Source: Ralstonia sp. NFACC01
GTDB taxonomy: Bacteria; Pseudomonadota; Gammaproteobacteria; Burkholderiales; Burkholderiaceae
Assembly (NCBI RefSeq): GCF_900115545.1
Contig: NZ_FOWV01000003.1
Coordinates: 186,001 to 250,000, forward strand
Reading direction: 5' to 3'
Length of the DNA stretch: 64,000 nt
Every line of letters starts with the position of its first letter. Within the stretch, counting starts at the first letter, position 1. Of the stretch, positions 34,487-44,098 are shown in pieces. Made by a program: the position numbers and the translations under genes. The notes under the pieces are model-generated. The model worked only from the letters and a program-made list of their open reading frames with translations. It did not search any database and was not told the origin of the DNA.

Positions 34487-36154
<1,668 letters not shown>

Positions 36155-36242: not shown

Positions 36243-37064
36243 CTATGCGGCGTGCCGCATGGCGCCTGCGTTGGCGCGCATTTCGTTGATCAACTCGCGG
36301 ATCAACTGGGCCGTTTCGAGCGGCTTTTCCATCGGATAAAGATGACTGCCTTCGATCCAGCGCAGCCGCCCGCCCACGACGCGCCGGGTCGCGCCCAGTC
36401 CGACTTGGCGAATCTCGCGCGAACGCGTGCCAGCCACAAAGCTCACCGGGAATGCCGTGCCGCCAGCGACTTTGCGCCCCATGTTGGTCGGCAATGTCCG
36501 ATAGATTTGGTATTCGATTTCGCGCGAGAAGCGTAGTGTGCGCTCGCGGTCACGGCCCGTGGGCTCGGTGCCATGCTCGACATAGTCGCGCAGCACGTCT
36601 TCATCCCAACGATCGAACTTGCGCTTGGCCTTGAAGTGGCTCCAGACGGCGTCGAGATCGGGCCACAGATGGCGCCGGTTCTTCGTCGCTGCGGCAGGCG
36701 ATTGGCTCTCGTCGATGTCCAGCCATTGCGCTACGCGCAGCAGCTTGGCGCGCCATCCCGCGATGATCGGCGAATCGAGCATCACGACGCCACGCACGCG
36801 CTCGGGCCGGCGCAGCGCCGCCATCAAACTCAAGAAGCCGCCCAGCGAATGACCCACCAGCCAGACCGGCTCGGGCTGCGCGTCGATTTCGGCGAGCAAC
36901 TCCTTCACAAGACCGGGCCAGGAACGGGTCACCGGAAAATGCGGATCATGCCCAAAACGCTCCACGGCGCGGATGTCGAATTCGTCACTCAGCACGCCCA
37001 GCATCTTGCGATACGTTCCCACGGGAAAGCCGTTGGCATGCGAAAAAAGCATCACATCGCGCAT
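36243..37064 (-). CDS. Alpha/beta hydrolase next to the Anbu peptidase
   Basis: The 273-aa protein has LFSHANGFPVGTY (oxyanion, about 6-18), nucleophile elbow VGHSLGGFLSLM (Ser near 72) and C-terminal IEGSHLYPMEKP with the catalytic His near 244. Substrate unknown. It begins 18 bp after the Anbu gene stop on the same strand, so it is probably the last gene of that operon. Its place there could mean an esterase or amidase step, but this is only inference. Confidence 0.87.
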   Translation of the reverse strand: MRDVMLFSHANGFPVGTYRKMLGVLSDEFDIRAVERFGHDPHFPVTRSWPGLVKELLAEIDAQPEPVWLVGHSLGGFLSLMAALRRPERVRGVVMLDSPIIAGWRAKLLRVAQWLDIDESQSPAAATKNRRHLWPDLDAVWSHFKAKRKFDRWDEDVLRDYVEHGTEPTGRDRERTLRFSREIEYQIYRTLPTNMGRKVAGGTAFPVSFVAGTRSREIRQVGLGATRRVVGGRLRWIEGSHLYPMEKPLETAQLIRELINEMRANAGAMRHAA

Positions 37065-37082
37065 CGCAGGTCCCTGTGCCGC

Positions 37083-37985
37083 TCAGTGCGACTTCTGCGA
37101 TCCGCCGGCCACGCGCTGGATCGTGGAAACCTGCTCCAACGCAGGACCGGGCGCGCGTTCCGGCACGGCTGGCGCGTCGGCGGCGGGCGGCGCAATGCGC
37201 ACGGGTCCGACCTCCGCGGAAGGATGGCCTTCGCGGCGCAGCGGGTATAACGGCGAAGTGCCGGTTTCCCAATCCGGATCGTCGATTTCTGCAAACACCT
37301 GGCGCAGACGCTTGCCCCATGTGCCCCGAATCATCGCGAAATATGGGTTCTCTTCGTCGATGGCGACAAAGCGCGTCACACGCAGGGAGTCGGCCTCATA
37401 GACCAGCAGATCCAGCGGCAAGCCCACGGAAATATTCGATTTCAGCGTTGAATCCATCGAAATCAGCGCGCATTTTGCAGCTTCGTCCAGCGGCAGCCCC
37501 GGGCTGACCACGCGGTCGATGATCGGCTTGCCGTACTTGGCTTCGCCGATCTGGAAATAGCAATTCTCGGGCGTGGCTTCAATGAAGTTGCCTGCCGCAT
37601 AGACGTTGAACAGGCGCGGCCGCTCTGCGCCGATCTGCCCGCCGAAGACGATGCTGACGTTGAAGTCGATTTTGGCCTTGGCCAGCGCTGCCGCGTCGCG
37701 GTCGTAAACGTCGCGCACGGCCTCGCCAACAATCGTGGCGGCCTCGAACATGTCCCGTGCCGTCCACAGAGAGCGCGGCTTGCCGCGCGCTTCGGTCAGC
37801 ACTTGGCGCACCGCCTGACTGATCGCCAGATTGCCGGCCGTCAGCAGCACCATGACGCGATCGCCTTCGCGCTCGAAGACGGTCATTTTGCGGAACGTGG
37901 AAATGGCGTCCACTCCCGCATTCGTGCGGGAGTCGGACAGGAACACAAGGCCTGCGTCCAGGCGCATGGCGACGCAATAAGTCAT
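37083..37985 (-). CDS. Proteasome-type protease, Anbu family
   Basis: The 300-aa protein belongs to the Anbu (COG3484) group of Ntn hydrolases related to HslV and the proteasome beta subunit. After removal of Met1, Thr2 of MTYCVAMRLD would be the nucleophile, and the N terminus continues with the beta-subunit-like pattern GLVFLSDSRTNAG (Asp/Ser/Arg region) and VMVLLTAGNLAISQAV. The C-terminal 60 residues are Pro/Ala-rich and hydrophilic, an extension beyond the usual length near 240-250. It lies 83 bp after the transglutaminase-like gene in a conserved cluster. Confidence 0.9.
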   Translation of the reverse strand: MTYCVAMRLDAGLVFLSDSRTNAGVDAISTFRKMTVFEREGDRVMVLLTAGNLAISQAVRQVLTEARGKPRSLWTARDMFEAATIVGEAVRDVYDRDAAALAKAKIDFNVSIVFGGQIGAERPRLFNVYAAGNFIEATPENCYFQIGEAKYGKPIIDRVVSPGLPLDEAAKCALISMDSTLKSNISVGLPLDLLVYEADSLRVTRFVAIDEENPYFAMIRGTWGKRLRQVFAEIDDPDWETGTSPLYPLRREGHPSAEVGPVRIAPPAADAPAVPERAPGPALEQVSTIQRVAGGSQKSH

Positions 37986-38068
37986 GGGCGAAGCAACAAA
38001 CGGAAACGGTGGTTTGAAGGCATTCTAGCGCGCCGATCGCAACCCATCCGCGCGCTTGGAAGAGGTGC

Positions 38069-38914
38069 TCAATTCACTCGGGTAGCCTCGGCGGGCAACG
38101 GCTCAATGGAAATGCTGACATCCAGCGACTCCGCGCCCCCGCCCTGCCGCACGCCGCGCACCGGCGCCGCAGACTGGTAATCGCGCCCGACCGCCAATCG
38201 GATGTGGCGAGCATCGGTAAAGCACTGGTGGGTGACGTCGATGCTGCACCACGTGTGCGATTCGGCATCGAGGCAAACGTCGGCCCACGCGTGGCTGGCG
38301 AGGTCCTCTTCGCCCACGGCGTGGAAATAGCCGCTGACATAGCGTGCCGGCACGCCCAGCGCCCGGCAGCAAGCAACCATCACCTGCGCCTGGTCCTGGC
38401 ATACGCCCGTGCCCAGGCCGAACGCCTCCGCAGCGGTGGTGCCGACGTGGGTGGTGTTCGGTTTGTAGCTCACGCGCGTAGCGATGGCTTGCGCAAGGCG
38501 CACTGCAGATTCCGCGTCGCCTTGCACCAGCCTGTGCTCTCGCGCAAAGTTGATCATTTCCGGCGGCGCGGAAGTCAGCGGTGTGGCACTCAGAAAGTAC
38601 AGCGGCGAAACGCGATAGCGCCCTTGCCCCGGCGCATCGACAAACCGTTGGCTGCCGGGGGCGCCCGCAGGAAACACCTCAACAATGCCACGCGCGTCGA
38701 TGATGACGTCATCCGTACGGCTGCCAAGGGTGAAGTGATGGACGACGTTGCCGAAACCGTCGGTGGCGCGCGTGAGGTTGCCGGGCGCGTGGATCTGCCA
38801 GCTGTCCACCTGCTGCAGCTCGCCGCTGCGAGGTGTCAGCCGCAGCTCATGCACGCTGTGGCGCAGCGGCTCGGCATAACGGTAGACCGTCGTGTGTCGA
38901 ATTTGGTATTTCAC
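38069..38914 (-). CDS. Transglutaminase-like protein (Anbu cluster)
   Basis: The 281-aa protein has an N-terminal beta-rich domain (YQIRHTTVYRYAEPLRHSVHELRL), then a transglutaminase-like cysteine peptidase core with GLGTGVCQDQAQVMV (Cys172), EDLASHAWADVC (His208) and TWCSIDVTH (Asp226). Bacterial proteins of this type are thought to act as peptidases or amide-bond transferases. The start is a GTG. It follows the alpha-E gene by 57 bp. Confidence 0.9.
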   Translation of the reverse strand: MKYQIRHTTVYRYAEPLRHSVHELRLTPRSGELQQVDSWQIHAPGNLTRATDGFGNVVHHFTLGSRTDDVIIDARGIVEVFPAGAPGSQRFVDAPGQGRYRVSPLYFLSATPLTSAPPEMINFAREHRLVQGDAESAVRLAQAIATRVSYKPNTTHVGTTAAEAFGLGTGVCQDQAQVMVACCRALGVPARYVSGYFHAVGEEDLASHAWADVCLDAESHTWCSIDVTHQCFTDARHIRLAVGRDYQSAAPVRGVRQGGGAESLDVSISIEPLPAEATRVN

Positions 38915-38971
38915 GATGACACGGGCGCTACCCGAAAGTGGCGCCCCGATGTATGCACATTGTCCTGCACG

Positions 38972-39922
38972 TCAGGCCACCTCGAGCGGCACCAGGAAAT
39001 CCTGGCTGATGCCGTTGCCCAGGTCGCCGATCCGCTCCAGGAAGTTGGTCAGCCAAGCATGCAGGCCGACCGCAAAAATATCTTCGATGCGGGCGTACCG
39101 CAGATCGGCGTGCAGTTTACCAGCGCGACGCTCGGTCTCTGCCGATTGACTGTTGCGCACAGTCGAAAGAATCTCAACCACTTCGTCCATGCTGGCCAGC
39201 AGCGAGCGCGGCATATCGCTGCGCAGAATCAGCAACTCCGCCACACGCGTCGGCGTGATGACATTGCGATAGATCTTGCGATAGACCTCGAAGCCTGACA
39301 CCGAACGCAGCGTGGCGGCCCAATGGTAGAAGTCGCCCTGCTCCGCCGCGGTTTCATCGCGCGTGGGCGTGGACTGAAACTTCACGTCAAGCAGCCGTGC
39401 AGTGTTGTCGGCACGTTCCAGAAAGGTGCCCAGGCGCATGAAATGGAACGCGTCGTCCGTCAGCATGGTGCCGACCTGCACGCCGCGTGACAGATGCGAG
39501 CGGAACTTCACCCATTCAAAGAATTGCGATGGATCGTCGCGCAACATGCCTTCGGCAATCAGGCGCTGCACATCCAGCCACGTGGTGTTGATGGTTTCCC
39601 ACACCTCCGTTGTGAGGGAGCCGCGCACGGCTCGGGCGTTTTCGCGCGCGCCGCGCAGGCAGCTCATGATCGACGACGCGTTGGTCATGTCGCGCACCAT
39701 GAAGTCAATCACGTCGTCGCGCGAAAGCAGGCCGTAGCGGTCGGCAAAAACCCGGGTGAGTTCGGAAATATCGAGCATTGCCCACCAGCCCTGCTCCGCC
39801 ACTTCGGCCGATTGCGGCATCAGCGAGGTCTGGTAGTTCACGTCGAGCATGCGGGCGGTGTTCTCGGCGCGTTCGGTATAGCGCGCCATCCAGAAAAGGT
39901 GGTCTGCGGTGCGGCTGAGCAT
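38972..39922 (-). CDS. Alpha-E domain protein (DUF403)
   Basis: The 316-aa protein is almost wholly helical and begins MLSRTADHLFWMARYTERAENTARML, the signature of the alpha-E superfamily (COG2307). RDEVDFMVRDMTNASSIMSCL-like blocks and LGTFLERADNTARLLDVKF repeat the helical motif. No enzyme activity is known; the domain is found fused or adjacent to circularly permuted ATP-grasp proteins. It lies 65 bp after the ATP-grasp gene. Confidence 0.9.
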   Translation of the reverse strand: MLSRTADHLFWMARYTERAENTARMLDVNYQTSLMPQSAEVAEQGWWAMLDISELTRVFADRYGLLSRDDVIDFMVRDMTNASSIMSCLRGARENARAVRGSLTTEVWETINTTWLDVQRLIAEGMLRDDPSQFFEWVKFRSHLSRGVQVGTMLTDDAFHFMRLGTFLERADNTARLLDVKFQSTPTRDETAAEQGDFYHWAATLRSVSGFEVYRKIYRNVITPTRVAELLILRSDMPRSLLASMDEVVEILSTVRNSQSAETERRAGKLHADLRYARIEDIFAVGLHAWLTNFLERIGDLGNGISQDFLVPLEVA

Positions 39923-39987
39923 GGCGTTCCCTTCTACGTATTCGATATGCGATTGATCGACTGCCAGTTGCGACAATGCGCGAGCGT

Positions 39988-41472
39988 TCAGCGCTCCAGC
40001 ACCCACGTATCCTTCGTCCCGCCTCCCTGCGACGAGTTGACCACCAGCGAGCCCGCCCGCAACGCCACACGCGTGAGGCCACCGGGCACCATGCGCACAT
40101 CCTTTCCGGACAGCACGAACGGCCGCAGATCAATATGGCGCGGCGCGATGCCGGCTTCCACATACGTTGGGCAAGTCGACAACGCCAGCGTGGGCTGGGC
40201 AATGTATTGCTCCGGACGGGCCTTCACCACCTCACGGAAAGCAGCAATCTCTTCCTGCGTCGCGGCCGGGCCGACCAGCATGCCGTAGCCGCCCGCACCG
40301 TGCGTTTCCTTGACCACCAGCTCTCCCATGTGGTCGAGCACGTATTGCAGGTCGTCCGGTCGACGGCACATGTACGTCGGCACGTTATTGAGGATCGGCT
40401 CCTCGCCGAGGTAGAAGCGGATCATGTCCGGCACGTACGGATAGATCGACTTGTCGTCTGCCACGCCGGTGCCGATCGCATTGCAAATGGTGACGTTGCC
40501 CGCGCGATAGACCGACAGCAGCCCTGCCGCACCCAGGGAAGAATCCGGCCGGAACACCAGCGGATCGAGGAAGTCGTCGTCCACCCGGCGATAGATGACG
40601 TCGATGCGCTGGGGGCCCTGCGTCGTGCGCATGTAGAGATGATCGTCCTGCACGAAAAGGTCGTGCCCCTCCACCAGCTCAACGCCCATCTGCTGCGCAA
40701 GGAACGCGTGCTCGAAATACGCCGAGTTGTACATGCCCGGCGTAAGCACCACCACCGTCGGGTCGGCAATGTTCTGCGGCGACACGCTGCGCAGCATGTC
40801 GAGCAGCATGTCGGGGTAATGCGCGACCGGCGCCACACGATTGCGTGCGAACAACTCCGGAAACAGCCGCATCATCATCTTGCGGTTTTCCAGCATGTAC
40901 GAGACCCCCGAGGGCACGCGCAGATTGTCTTCCAACACGTAGAACTCGCCCTCCCCAGCACGCACGATGTCGATGCCGGCCACGTGGGCGTAGATATCGC
41001 GCGGCACGTCCACGCCGAGCATGTCGGGGCGGTATTGGGCGTTGTTGTAGATCTGATCGGGCGGAATGACACCAGCACGCAGAATGTTCTGCTCGTGATA
41101 GATGTCGTGCAGGAAGCGGTTGAGCGCATCAACGCGTTGCCGCAGGCCGCGCTCGAGCGTCGCCCACTCGCTGGCCGGGAAGATGCGCGGAATGATATCG
41201 AACGGAATCGTACGCTCGGTGCCGCTATTCGACTCGTCCTTGTCGCCGTACACGGCAAAAGTGATACCGACACGGCGGAAGATCAGATCTGCCTCGGCGC
41301 GCTTGTTCTGCAGCGTTGTGGCGGACTGCGCGCCCAGCCATTCAGCGAAACGTCCGTAGTGGCCGCGTACCTCACCCTGTTGGACGAGTGCTGCCGGGGC
41401 CGGTTCGGCGGCATGGGGGTTGCGGTCCCCATCATGCCAGCTGAGCATTTCATCGTAGAACCGGACTGCCAT
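39988..41472 (-). CDS. Circularly permuted ATP-grasp protein (CP_ATPgrasp_2)
   Basis: The 494-aa protein matches COG2308: LQNKRAEADLIFRRVGITFAVYG near 55-77, FDIIPRIFPASEWATLERGL near 90-109, AGIDIVRAGEGEFYVLEDNLRVPSG near 165-189 (metal and ATP ligands) and VVKETHGAGGYGML near 380. ATP-grasp enzymes form amide bonds through acyl phosphates; this permuted class is predicted to make peptide-like linkages. ATG at 41472 has GGGGAG six bases upstream. An open frame further upstream is a shadow of comEC. Confidence 0.92.
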   Translation of the reverse strand: MAVRFYDEMLSWHDGDRNPHAAEPAPAALVQQGEVRGHYGRFAEWLGAQSATTLQNKRAEADLIFRRVGITFAVYGDKDESNSGTERTIPFDIIPRIFPASEWATLERGLRQRVDALNRFLHDIYHEQNILRAGVIPPDQIYNNAQYRPDMLGVDVPRDIYAHVAGIDIVRAGEGEFYVLEDNLRVPSGVSYMLENRKMMMRLFPELFARNRVAPVAHYPDMLLDMLRSVSPQNIADPTVVVLTPGMYNSAYFEHAFLAQQMGVELVEGHDLFVQDDHLYMRTTQGPQRIDVIYRRVDDDFLDPLVFRPDSSLGAAGLLSVYRAGNVTICNAIGTGVADDKSIYPYVPDMIRFYLGEEPILNNVPTYMCRRPDDLQYVLDHMGELVVKETHGAGGYGMLVGPAATQEEIAAFREVVKARPEQYIAQPTLALSTCPTYVEAGIAPRHIDLRPFVLSGKDVRMVPGGLTRVALRAGSLVVNSSQGGGTKDTWVLER

Positions 41473-41575
41473 GCTTTTCTCCCCTGACGGCGCCGCGCGG
41501 TGTACGCGGCACGTGGTTTTTATAGCACAGCGGTTTTGACCCCCACAATGGGGCCAACCCGTTATGCCACCAAGT

Positions 41576-44098
41576 TTACGGCTGAGCGTCGAAGGCGCCG
41601 GTGGCCGTTGCCAGGGGTTCCACTTCCTGCGAGGAAGACCAGTACCGCAGGCGCATGGTGCGCGCGGTCTGGACGTCCAGCACATTGCCGTCGGTCTCGA
41701 TGACGACGGCACCGGTCTTGTCCGTGCGCAAACCGTCGATGTCGCGCGCCACGTAGCGCTGCCAGACCTGCGGATGCGGATGTCCGTACCGATTGCGGTA
41801 GCCGACCTGGAAAACCGCCACCTGCGGAGAAACTGCGTCCAAAAACGCGCCGCTGGAGCTTGTCTTGCTGCCGTGATGCGGCACAAGCAAGATGTCTGCC
41901 ATCAGTCGCTGCGGCGTTTCGGCAGCGATGAGGGCGCTTTCCTGGGCGGCTTCGATATCGCCGGTCAGCAGCGCAGCGTGGCGGCCATTGGCGATGCGCA
42001 GTACACAGCTGCGGGCGTTGCTGGACACGCGCTCGCTTTTTGCGGGCAGGCGCAGCGGGTGCAGCACTTCAAAGACGACGCCGTCCCACGCCCATGCTTG
42101 CCCAGCCAAACAATCGGTGAAACGGATGCCGTTTTCATTGGCCACGCTGCGCAGGGCATGCCCCTGGGGCAAAGACGCCAACATGGTGCGCACTGGCACC
42201 GCGTCGATCACCGTTTCGGTGCCACCGGCGTGGTCGCTGTCTTCGTGGCTGACGACGAGCGTGTCGAGTGATTCGGCGCCATGGCCGCGCAGGTAGGGAG
42301 TGATGACGCGGGCGGCAGCATCCGCATGGTCACCGTACCGCGGGCCGGTGTCGAATAGAAGGCGATGGCTGGCTGTTTCGACCAATGCCGCTGCACCTTG
42401 GCCGATATCGAACGCGACAAGCCGAAATTCACCCGGCCCTGGTGCTGGCTCGCGCGCCAGCACCAGCGGCAAGAGGAGCAAGGCGCCTTGAGCGCGCCAT
42501 GCCCATGCACGCATGCCGCCGGGCAGCAGCAATAACGCCACGCCAACCATCGACAGCACCAACGCCCACACGGGCGCGACCGGCGCAATCCACACCGCCC
42601 ACCGCGGCTGTGCCAGCCACTCAAGCCAAGTGGCCAGCCAGCGGAAGCTCGCGTCGGCTAACACCAGCACCAGCTGCGCAAGCGGATCTGGAAGGGCCGC
42701 CCCGATCAGCGCCAGCGGTGTCGTCACGAAACTCACGGTGGGAATCGCCAGCCCGTTGGCCACCGCGGAGACCACCGAGGTCTGCTGGAACAACAGCAAG
42801 GTCAATGGCAACAGGCCGAATGTGACCGCAAGCTGGATCCGCGTACCGCCCGCCAATGCACGCTGGGCGCGTTCGATCCAGCCGCTTATTTTGTCATCGC
42901 GCCGCCCGTCGAGAGCCATCTGCGCGGCGATGAATATGATCGCCACCGCGCCGAATGACAACCAGAACCCGGCCGACATAACCGCCCACGGGTCCACCAC
43001 CGCTACCACGGCGGCCGCCCAGCAAAGCGACAGGCTGGCCGGCACATTGCGATCGGTCAGCCTGGCGATGGCGACAGTGGACAGCATCAGCAGCGTGCGT
43101 TGCGCGGGCACGCCCATCCCAGCAAGCAGGCAGTAGCCAAGCGCAGCCAGCATGGCCGCGATGGCGCCTGCGCGCGGGGTAGGCATGCGCAACGGCAACG
43201 GCGTGCGCAGCCAGCGCGCCAGCCCAAACGACCGGCGCCACAACGCCATCCACAACGCAGCAAACAGCCCGGCGATCATCGTGATGTGCAAGCCCGAAAT
43301 GCTGGCGAGGTGGCTGATGCCTGTGCGGCGGAACAGGTCCCAGTCGTCGCGGGCGATGCCGCTTTGGTCGCCCACCACGAGCGCCACCATGACGGCCGCG
43401 TAGCGCGCATCGGGCAAGGCATCGAGGATGTGGCGCCGCACGCTGGCACGCCAGCGCTCTACGTCAACGCCGAAACCGGTGCCGGCCTCTTCCAGCGCGA
43501 TGTTCTGGGCGCGTTTGCCCGTGCGCACATAGCCGATGGCGCGGATGTTGTCGGCCAGCATCGCGTATTCGCCATCGAAACCGCCGGGGTTGGTCAGGCT
43601 GTGCGGGCGCTTGACGCGCAGCGTCAGTTGCCAGCGCTGGCCGGGTTGCAGATCAGGGATGCCGGCACGTCGGTCGGGCTTTGCGCCCTCCTCGCTTACG
43701 TTGTCCCAGGTTCGTGCGCCATACCAGGACAGGCGCACGCGCGGTGGCACGGCATCACCCGCATTGCTGGATTCAATGTGGAAGAGAAAACGCGTGGCGT
43801 CGTCGCCGTTCTGCGGCAGCTCGGCCACCACGCCGGTCGCGATGATGTCCTTGCCTTCCCACGCGGGGCTGAGGGCCACGGCCATGCGCTGCTGTGCGCG
43901 CCAATCGCTCCAGCCAAACCCCGCCGCGATGGTGCTGGCGACCAGCAACCCGGGAAACAGCATCGGCCGACGCCGCAGAAAAGCTACCAGCAGCAGACAG
44001 AGCAGCAACACGCCCAGCGGCTGCCACACCGGCGCCAGCGCCGCCTGCATCTGCAATGCCATGCAGCCGGCAACAAAGCCGATCAACCACAGACGCAC
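41576..44098 (-). CDS. comEC: ComEC/Rec2 DNA-uptake channel protein
   Basis: ComEC carries single-stranded DNA across the inner membrane during natural transformation. The 840-aa protein has N-terminal membrane segments, an extracellular OB-like region, the competence domain with RTGISHLASISGLHITMIAGL near residue 260, further TM segments, and a C-terminal MBL domain with SHEDSDHAGG near 615 and VPHHGSKTSSS. The start is a GTG with no strong ribosome binding site. Ralstonia is naturally transformable, so a full-length gene is expected. Gap to tatD-type gene is 9 bp. Confidence 0.95.
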   Translation of the reverse strand: MRLWLIGFVAGCMALQMQAALAPVWQPLGVLLLCLLLVAFLRRRPMLFPGLLVASTIAAGFGWSDWRAQQRMAVALSPAWEGKDIIATGVVAELPQNGDDATRFLFHIESSNAGDAVPPRVRLSWYGARTWDNVSEEGAKPDRRAGIPDLQPGQRWQLTLRVKRPHSLTNPGGFDGEYAMLADNIRAIGYVRTGKRAQNIALEEAGTGFGVDVERWRASVRRHILDALPDARYAAVMVALVVGDQSGIARDDWDLFRRTGISHLASISGLHITMIAGLFAALWMALWRRSFGLARWLRTPLPLRMPTPRAGAIAAMLAALGYCLLAGMGVPAQRTLLMLSTVAIARLTDRNVPASLSLCWAAAVVAVVDPWAVMSAGFWLSFGAVAIIFIAAQMALDGRRDDKISGWIERAQRALAGGTRIQLAVTFGLLPLTLLLFQQTSVVSAVANGLAIPTVSFVTTPLALIGAALPDPLAQLVLVLADASFRWLATWLEWLAQPRWAVWIAPVAPVWALVLSMVGVALLLLPGGMRAWAWRAQGALLLLPLVLAREPAPGPGEFRLVAFDIGQGAAALVETASHRLLFDTGPRYGDHADAAARVITPYLRGHGAESLDTLVVSHEDSDHAGGTETVIDAVPVRTMLASLPQGHALRSVANENGIRFTDCLAGQAWAWDGVVFEVLHPLRLPAKSERVSSNARSCVLRIANGRHAALLTGDIEAAQESALIAAETPQRLMADILLVPHHGSKTSSSGAFLDAVSPQVAVFQVGYRNRYGHPHPQVWQRYVARDIDGLRTDKTGAVVIETDGNVLDVQTARTMRLRYWSSSQEVEPLATATGAFDAQP

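Follow-up and report, generated by a model that had tools for sequence, protein, structure and literature searches.

The window examined here, a stretch of 64,000 nucleotides from Ralstonia sp. NFACC01 (contig NZ_FOWV01000003.1, positions 186,001–250,000; genome of 5.37 Mb), contains five open reading frames (ORFs) at positions 36243–41472, all on the minus strand. The first four almost certainly constitute the known four-gene operon of the proteasome-like hydrolase Anbu, which was most likely inherited vertically in the Ralstonia/Cupriavidus line and lies here between comEC and an unrelated, pyrG-associated alpha/beta hydrolase gene. The favored explanation joins this anatomy to a mechanism, in which a putative ATP-grasp/Alpha-E ligase would supply the substrate that Anbu hydrolyzes, and to a regulatory difference, in which the Ralstonia operon would use a sigma-70-type promoter; taken whole, it has a probability of roughly 0.55. 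The five genes are the following (aa, amino acids).

39988..41472, minus strand: circularly permuted ATP-grasp protein, 494 aa (Pfam PF14403, 1e-171; solved relative 3n6x)
38972..39922, minus strand: Alpha-E protein, 316 aa (Pfam; all-helical model; two repeats)
38069..38914, minus strand: transglutaminase-like protein, 281 aa, GTG start (Pfam; Cys172, His208, Asp226)
37083..37985, minus strand: Anbu, 300 aa (PDB matches; Thr1 after Met, D17, K32, G50)
36243..37064, minus strand: alpha/beta hydrolase, 273 aa (Pfam; comEC–hydrolase–pyrG–kdsA–eno block)

An initial annotation had placed five minus-strand genes at these positions with gaps of 18–83 bp, which holds exactly (65, 57, 83, and 18 bp, from ATP-grasp to hydrolase), and its assignment of the first four to the ATP-grasp, Alpha-E, transglutaminase-like, and Anbu families was confirmed by Pfam and PDB matches. 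NCBIfam gave no name for four of the five proteins, and only sub-cut-off matches for the hydrolase. The order ATP-grasp, Alpha-E, transglutaminase-like protein, Anbu on one strand is that of the four-gene Anbu operon, to which COG numbers 2308, 2307, and 3484 belong. This operon is already in print (PMC5666114; PMC6376114), so that the co-occurrence of the four families was rightly taken as known, and the Ralstonia copy is a well-conserved example of an established system. A conserved gene order is stated in PMC6376114, in which an Anbu of Ralstonia eutropha was also expressed. The window operon shares with the Anbu operon of Pseudomonas, Yersinia, and others the same four families, order, and strand, as well as the catalytic and Anbu-1 type S1-pocket residues, but differs in its position between comEC and the pyrG-side hydrolase, in the lack of a sigma-54 site in the tested Ralstonia genomes, and in a longer, variable Anbu tail.

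Comparisons were made in a main sample of 120 family genomes and a wider sample of 299 genomes of the phylum, which have six Anbu genomes in common; 60 Anbu loci were fetched; leaving the window genome aside, 59 of the remaining 73 Anbu genomes supplied them. Genus labels are g1 for Ralstonia (the genus of the window), g3 for Cupriavidus, and g5 for 'Burkholderiaceae bacterium PBA'.

The assignment of the fourth protein to Anbu, made from its sequence, is firm. The protein matches Pfam Proteasome at 7.4e-5 (22.9 bits; cut-off 22.4) and, in a PDB sequence search reaching to E 0.01, has five relatives (4e-94 to 5e-65), three of which are titled Anbu or designed Anbu (5loy, 5nyj, 5nyf) and two 'Peptidase' (5nyw, 5lox); 5lox is treated as Anbu in PMC8665760. 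These matches span the Anbu core, from residue 1 or 2 to residues 234–240. With HslV and the beta subunits of the 20S proteasome, Anbu shares the Pfam Proteasome family and Thr1/Asp17/Lys32-33; unlike for those systems, all five PDB matches are Anbu-type entries, and no AAA+ ATPase is present among the five window proteins profiled by Pfam. The N-terminal Thr that had been proposed is present, and T1, D17, and K32 occur in the window protein and in 60/60 fetched copies. The window protein also has all five residues of the S1 pocket of Pa-Anbu, which is of the Anbu-1 type (T20, F30, T48, L52, S55; PMC5666114), and among the family copies F30 occurs in only 30/60, T48 in 23/60, and S55 in 27/60. 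The Pro/Ala-rich C-terminal extension noted earlier is real (10 P and 9 A in the 58 residues 243–300), and alignment indicates that it is not conserved outside the genus: identity is about 90% in 9 other Ralstonia, and in 9 Cupriavidus 74% of the tail is unaligned while the core of the same proteins remains 82% identical, which marks the tail as fast-evolving.

The transglutaminase-like protein matches Pfam Bact_transglu_N (PF08379, 4e-22) and Transglut_core (PF01841, 5.5e-20), and its expected Cys-His-Asp triad is intact. Among 50 fetched copies, His and Asp are kept in all and Cys in 47, the others having Ser, Ala, and a gap (one each).

The ATP-grasp protein matches Pfam CP_ATPgrasp_2/1 (1e-171), and a single solved relative was found, 3n6x (2e-217), which was deposited as a putative glutathionylspermidine synthase, a name that is annotation only. 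Alpha-E matches its Pfam family at 8.5e-97, and no relative was found for it among PDB sequences at E 0.1. Its AlphaFold2 model (49 sequences) is all-helical, with a mean predicted local distance difference test score (pLDDT) of 93. When the protein is cut at residues 153/154, the two halves align as profiles (95 columns, 98.6%, E 5.6e-16), and each half bears an ER(A)xNTARxLDV motif; Alpha-E is therefore an internal duplication. A fold search gave no significant match for Alpha-E, the VIA-align rows lying within the helical-bundle background, and this says nothing about the novelty of the fold. ATP-grasp and Alpha-E are naturally fused in some relatives; in G077:C4, for example, matches to both lie in one 869-aa open frame.

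The alpha/beta hydrolase, which the initial annotation counted as an extra member of the operon, belongs by its genomic distribution to a neighboring housekeeping block, comEC–hydrolase–pyrG–kdsA–eno, instead. In the window, the two flanking genes are these.

41576..44098, minus strand: ComEC-like gene, upstream flank, 103 bp away (named from its sequence)
34487..36151, minus strand: pyrG, CTP synthase, downstream flank, 91 bp away (also named from its sequence)

The hydrolase matches Pfam Abhydrolase_6 (1.3e-12), keeps Ser73 and His241 in 38/38 fetched copies, and has only weak PDB sequence matches (best 5e-5). Orthologues, counted above 200 bits, are present in 76/120 family genomes, and their presence is independent of Anbu (51 genomes with both, 23 with Anbu only, 25 with the hydrolase only, 21 with neither; p = 0.12). 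The idea of membership fails the annotation's own test, absence of the hydrolase from the neighborhood in most relatives: it adjoins Anbu in 19/74 Anbu genomes (10 Ralstonia, 7 Cupriavidus, one g5, one g24) and is away from it in the other 55, so that a conserved neighborhood with Anbu was not found. By contrast, it adjoins pyrG in all 76 genomes that have it, including those without Anbu at that site: among the genes tested, 57/57 non-adjacent copies lie directly ahead of pyrG, and pyrG also follows the hydrolase in all 19 Anbu-adjacent genomes (18 loci and the window). comEC is the tested gene before the hydrolase in 56 of the 57 non-adjacent copies, and L312 has no tested gene there.

That the five genes form one unit, the hydrolase being a true new pathway member in Ralstonia and Cupriavidus that acts on the product of Anbu, is very improbable. 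The spacing invites such a reading, since the hydrolase starts 18 bp after Anbu in the window and the aligned ends are 19–26 bp apart in 9 other Ralstonia, and so does the adjacency in 19/120 family genomes and in 23/27 named Ralstonia/Cupriavidus-group loci. Against this stand the independence of the two genes and the pyrG association just described, the loss of the hydrolase beside a kept Anbu operon in 2/9 sampled Cupriavidus loci and in 3/26 named Ralstonia/Cupriavidus-group loci long enough to show it, and its occurrence in 0/53 other named loci, some of which are incomplete. The hydrolase was accordingly rejected as a fifth operon member, and a function common to it and Anbu is not supported; with its removal as a candidate, a false lead is avoided. 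Because the spacing is short, co-transcription of Anbu and the hydrolase in Ralstonia is nevertheless likely.

The history of the four-gene operon itself was followed in trees. In a PyrG+KdsA+Eno tree, one branch (91/88, not starred) sets g1, g3, g5, and g24 apart, and a concatenated ATP-grasp + Alpha-E + Anbu tree recovers the same grouping (Shimodaira–Hasegawa-like approximate likelihood ratio test, SH-aLRT, 99); the operon tree omits 11/60 loci in which ATP-grasp or Alpha-E had no match, and also L110 and L113. Since the two trees agree, the operon at the comEC site was most likely inherited vertically. comEC also lies 133–338 bp before ATP-grasp, with no hydrolase match, in nine loci that are mostly Burkholderiales metagenome bins (L242, L245, L250, L253, L261, L270, L273, L281, L282), which suggests that the linkage of comEC and the Anbu operon may be old. 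A single insertion of the operon into a comEC–hydrolase gap is not claimed, because these nine loci make it just as likely that the hydrolase was lost from an older arrangement. In the Cupriavidus loci L071 and L076, the genes between comEC and ATP-grasp are an rpiR-like regulator, an edd-like gene, and a gluconokinase-like gene.

Anbu is present in 74/120 family genomes, a partial match of 20 bits in G118 not being counted (74 rather than 75). Alpha-E accompanies it in every case (74 genomes with both, none with Anbu only, 17 with Alpha-E only, 29 with neither; p = 3e-16), and in the phylum sample Alpha-E occurs in 101/102 Anbu genomes, one of which (G274) contributes a 42-residue fragment. 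ATP-grasp and Alpha-E occur in an identical set of 156/299 phylum genomes. Genomes in which an Anbu locus lacks the other three genes (the trio) carry Alpha-E at another place. The co-occurrence and these trio-less loci indicate that Anbu depends on the ATP-grasp/Alpha-E ligase pair, and not the reverse. This apparent dependence, which is near-absolute, is the best clue to the substrate of Anbu and points to the product of the ligase pair as a candidate. DUF2126 was considered as a substitute for Anbu, being present in each of the 17 family genomes that have Alpha-E and lack Anbu; 33 Anbu genomes also carry DUF2126, so the two are not mutually exclusive and the idea was dropped.

Promoter sequences separate Ralstonia from many relatives. 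The window operon has two candidate promoter sites.

41519..41548, minus strand: candidate operon promoter TTGTGG-N18-TATAAA, conserved within the genus
38022..38027, minus strand: TAGAAT, possible internal promoter of Anbu, the same bases in 10/10 aligned Ralstonia sequences

Sigma-54 sites were scored as the invariant GG-N10-GC with at least 10/12 matches, within 350 bp ahead of ATP-grasp. Of the 46 family loci whose upstream region is complete (L089, L114, and L116, whose upstream regions are incomplete, were left out of 49), 21 have such a site, versus 2.5% of random windows. By genus, it is found in Cupriavidus (9/9), g21 (7/7), g17 (2/2), g10 (2/3), and g24 (1/1), and in this family scan it is absent from Ralstonia, g5, g11, g13, g14, g16, g18, and g22. 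Among named loci, the Cupriavidus group has it in 20/20 and the Ralstonia group in 0/6, and across the genus Ralstonia it is found in 0/16 genomes; Ralstonia loci overlap between these three sets. Outside Ralstonia, the 29 best-scoring loci of the 156 ATP-grasp genomes of the phylum, scanned over 400 bp, include 19 with a sigma-54 site (14/24 with Anbu in the genome, 5/5 without), versus 4.6% of random windows. TTGTGG-N18-TATAAA is common to 15 of the 16 Ralstonia genomes, with a TG one base ahead of the second hexamer. The conserved TAGAAT ahead of Anbu could allow an internal promoter and a second transcript. The consensus scan of the window gave 1 promoter-like site versus 0.9 expected and 5 terminator-like sites versus 5.1 expected.

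The window genome encodes NtrC (632 bits) and has an exact sigma-54 site upstream of a UrtA-family (urtA-type) gene. Only perfect NtrC palindromes (GCAC-N7-GTGC) are informative, because sites with one mismatch occur in 39% of random windows. Perfect ones are present in 4/5 Achromobacter/Bordetella-group loci but were not found at the loci checked from the Ralstonia group (6), from Cupriavidus (7 of the 20 Cupriavidus-group loci), and from PBA (1); NtrC control is therefore not claimed for Cupriavidus. Four Achromobacter loci (L278, L279, L284, L287) have GCACC-N5-GGTGC upstream of ATP-grasp together with strong sigma-54 sites.

Published data link the operon to nitrogen in relatives. The Pseudomonas putida Anbu and ATP-grasp genes PP_2685 and PP_2688 are up by 4.4 and 4.0 log2 on nitrate versus ammonium (PMC8050072), the NtrC regulon of Burkholderia cenocepacia includes DUF404/407, DUF403, and transglutaminase genes (PMC5491218), and COG3484 appears in a survey of predicted sigma-54 regulons (PMC12316311). 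A CP_ATPgrasp gene of Bradyrhizobium is listed with an RpoN-type site (PMC13207237), and in marine metagenomes DUF403/404/407 correlate with domains of urea metabolism (PMC3597751). A literature search pairing Anbu with NtrC found nothing, and one pairing Ralstonia with a proteasome-type protease found PMC12316311 only, most subscription papers lying beyond the reach of both. From the promoter sequences, which are directly seen, we infer expression: it is probable that many relatives have a sigma-54 promoter for the operon and employ it when nitrogen is limiting, whereas Ralstonia reads it from a sigma-70-type promoter. The contrast between the Ralstonia and Cupriavidus promoters offers a natural test of a role in nitrogen starvation. 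The change may have run in either direction: g5 has no site, and the g24 site lies inside comEC by its coordinates.

From the gene content, co-occurrence, and catalytic residues, we infer the reactions and their product. The likeliest function, held tentatively, is ATP-driven amide ligation followed by hydrolysis by Anbu, a reading based on the families, the co-occurrence, and the ATP-grasp–Alpha-E fusions. The ATP-grasp protein, with Alpha-E as its constant partner, would activate a carboxylate and couple an amine to it; the same type of bond would be the target of the transglutaminase-like protein; and Anbu, a Thr1 N-terminal nucleophile (Ntn) hydrolase in an open ring, would cleave the ligated product or a tagged protein. 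In Ralstonia, the operon would be read from its sigma-70-type promoter, decoupled from nitrogen limitation. The earlier wording, ATP-driven amide-bond formation and then trimming, is thus fair but unproven, and the initial annotation as a whole is partly supported, with one gene mistakenly included and one regulatory difference now added. A peptide-synthesis or tagging idea is credited to Iyer 2009 in PMC5666114 and PMC6376114. Anbu has solved structures, yet the available text of the literature examined reports no substrate for it, and that of PMC5666114 and PMC6376114 names no physiological one. It is doubtful whether the scheme extends further, to Anbu as the hydrolytic arm of the ATP-grasp/Alpha-E ligase rather than a protease that stands alone, with the two ER motifs of the duplicated, pseudo-twofold Alpha-E forming one composite site, an Anbu substrate existing only where the pair has acted, and the Ralstonia module having left sigma-54 control to become housekeeping.

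Several observations speak against the explanation as a whole. Purified Anbu proteins showed no peptidase activity and the Yersinia operon proteins no specific interaction (PMC6376114), and PMC5666114 favors protein degradation over peptide synthesis. Anbu is separated from the trio in 10/60 fetched loci (L084, L085, L093, L094, L095, L109, L111, L112, L118, L121), and G219, in the phylum sample, is the sole Anbu genome of 102 without Alpha-E or ATP-grasp. As to regulation, other genera also have no sigma-54 site (g11 0/4 complete, g13 0/5, g16 0/2), and Cupriavidus may have regained its site rather than Ralstonia having lost one. In the phylum, the sigma-54 sites belong to ATP-grasp loci, some of which are not beside Anbu, and the exact sigma-54 pattern occurs at only 16 sites in the window genome versus 7 in a reversed control. 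The Ralstonia promoter is itself a prediction from sequence; the consensus promoter scan does not list it, its first hexamer having 3/6 matches.

Anbu might alternatively act in general protein turnover as an ATP-independent protease, for example in nitrogen starvation, the trio being a distinct pathway linked to it only by co-regulation. This is the view of the authors of PMC5666114, who report binding of epoxomicin and MG132 to Thr1 of Pa-Anbu, and it accords with the ring shape and with the capacity of Anbu to sit away from the trio; it is unlikely, however, given the presence of Alpha-E in 74/74 family and 101/102 phylum Anbu genomes and the inactivity of Anbu on standard substrates (PMC5666114; PMC6376114). 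Another alternative, and quite an unlikely one, is that the product of ATP-grasp/Alpha-E is a small metabolite, an amide akin to glutathionylspermidine, of which Anbu is the amidase, with no protein tagged. The deposited name of 3n6x and the nitrogen link in relatives (PMC5491218; PMC8050072) agree with this; the name is merely annotation, however, and the proteasome-like S1 pocket and the ring of Anbu favor a peptide substrate (PMC5666114).

A second type of cluster, with DUF2126 or an ATP-grasp–Alpha-E fusion, shares the ATP-grasp, Alpha-E, and transglutaminase families with the window operon; unlike genomes with this cluster, the window genome lacks DUF2126 and has just one Alpha-E. B. cenocepacia I35_5080-83 appears to resemble this type. 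A second, distant ATP-grasp, in a frame of 861–945 aa, is present in 5/16 Ralstonia genomes, that of the window not among them (G077:C4, G087:C12, G123:C2, G124:C2, G125:C34). Beside this second ATP-grasp, G077 and G087 also carry DUF2126 and an Alpha-E match.

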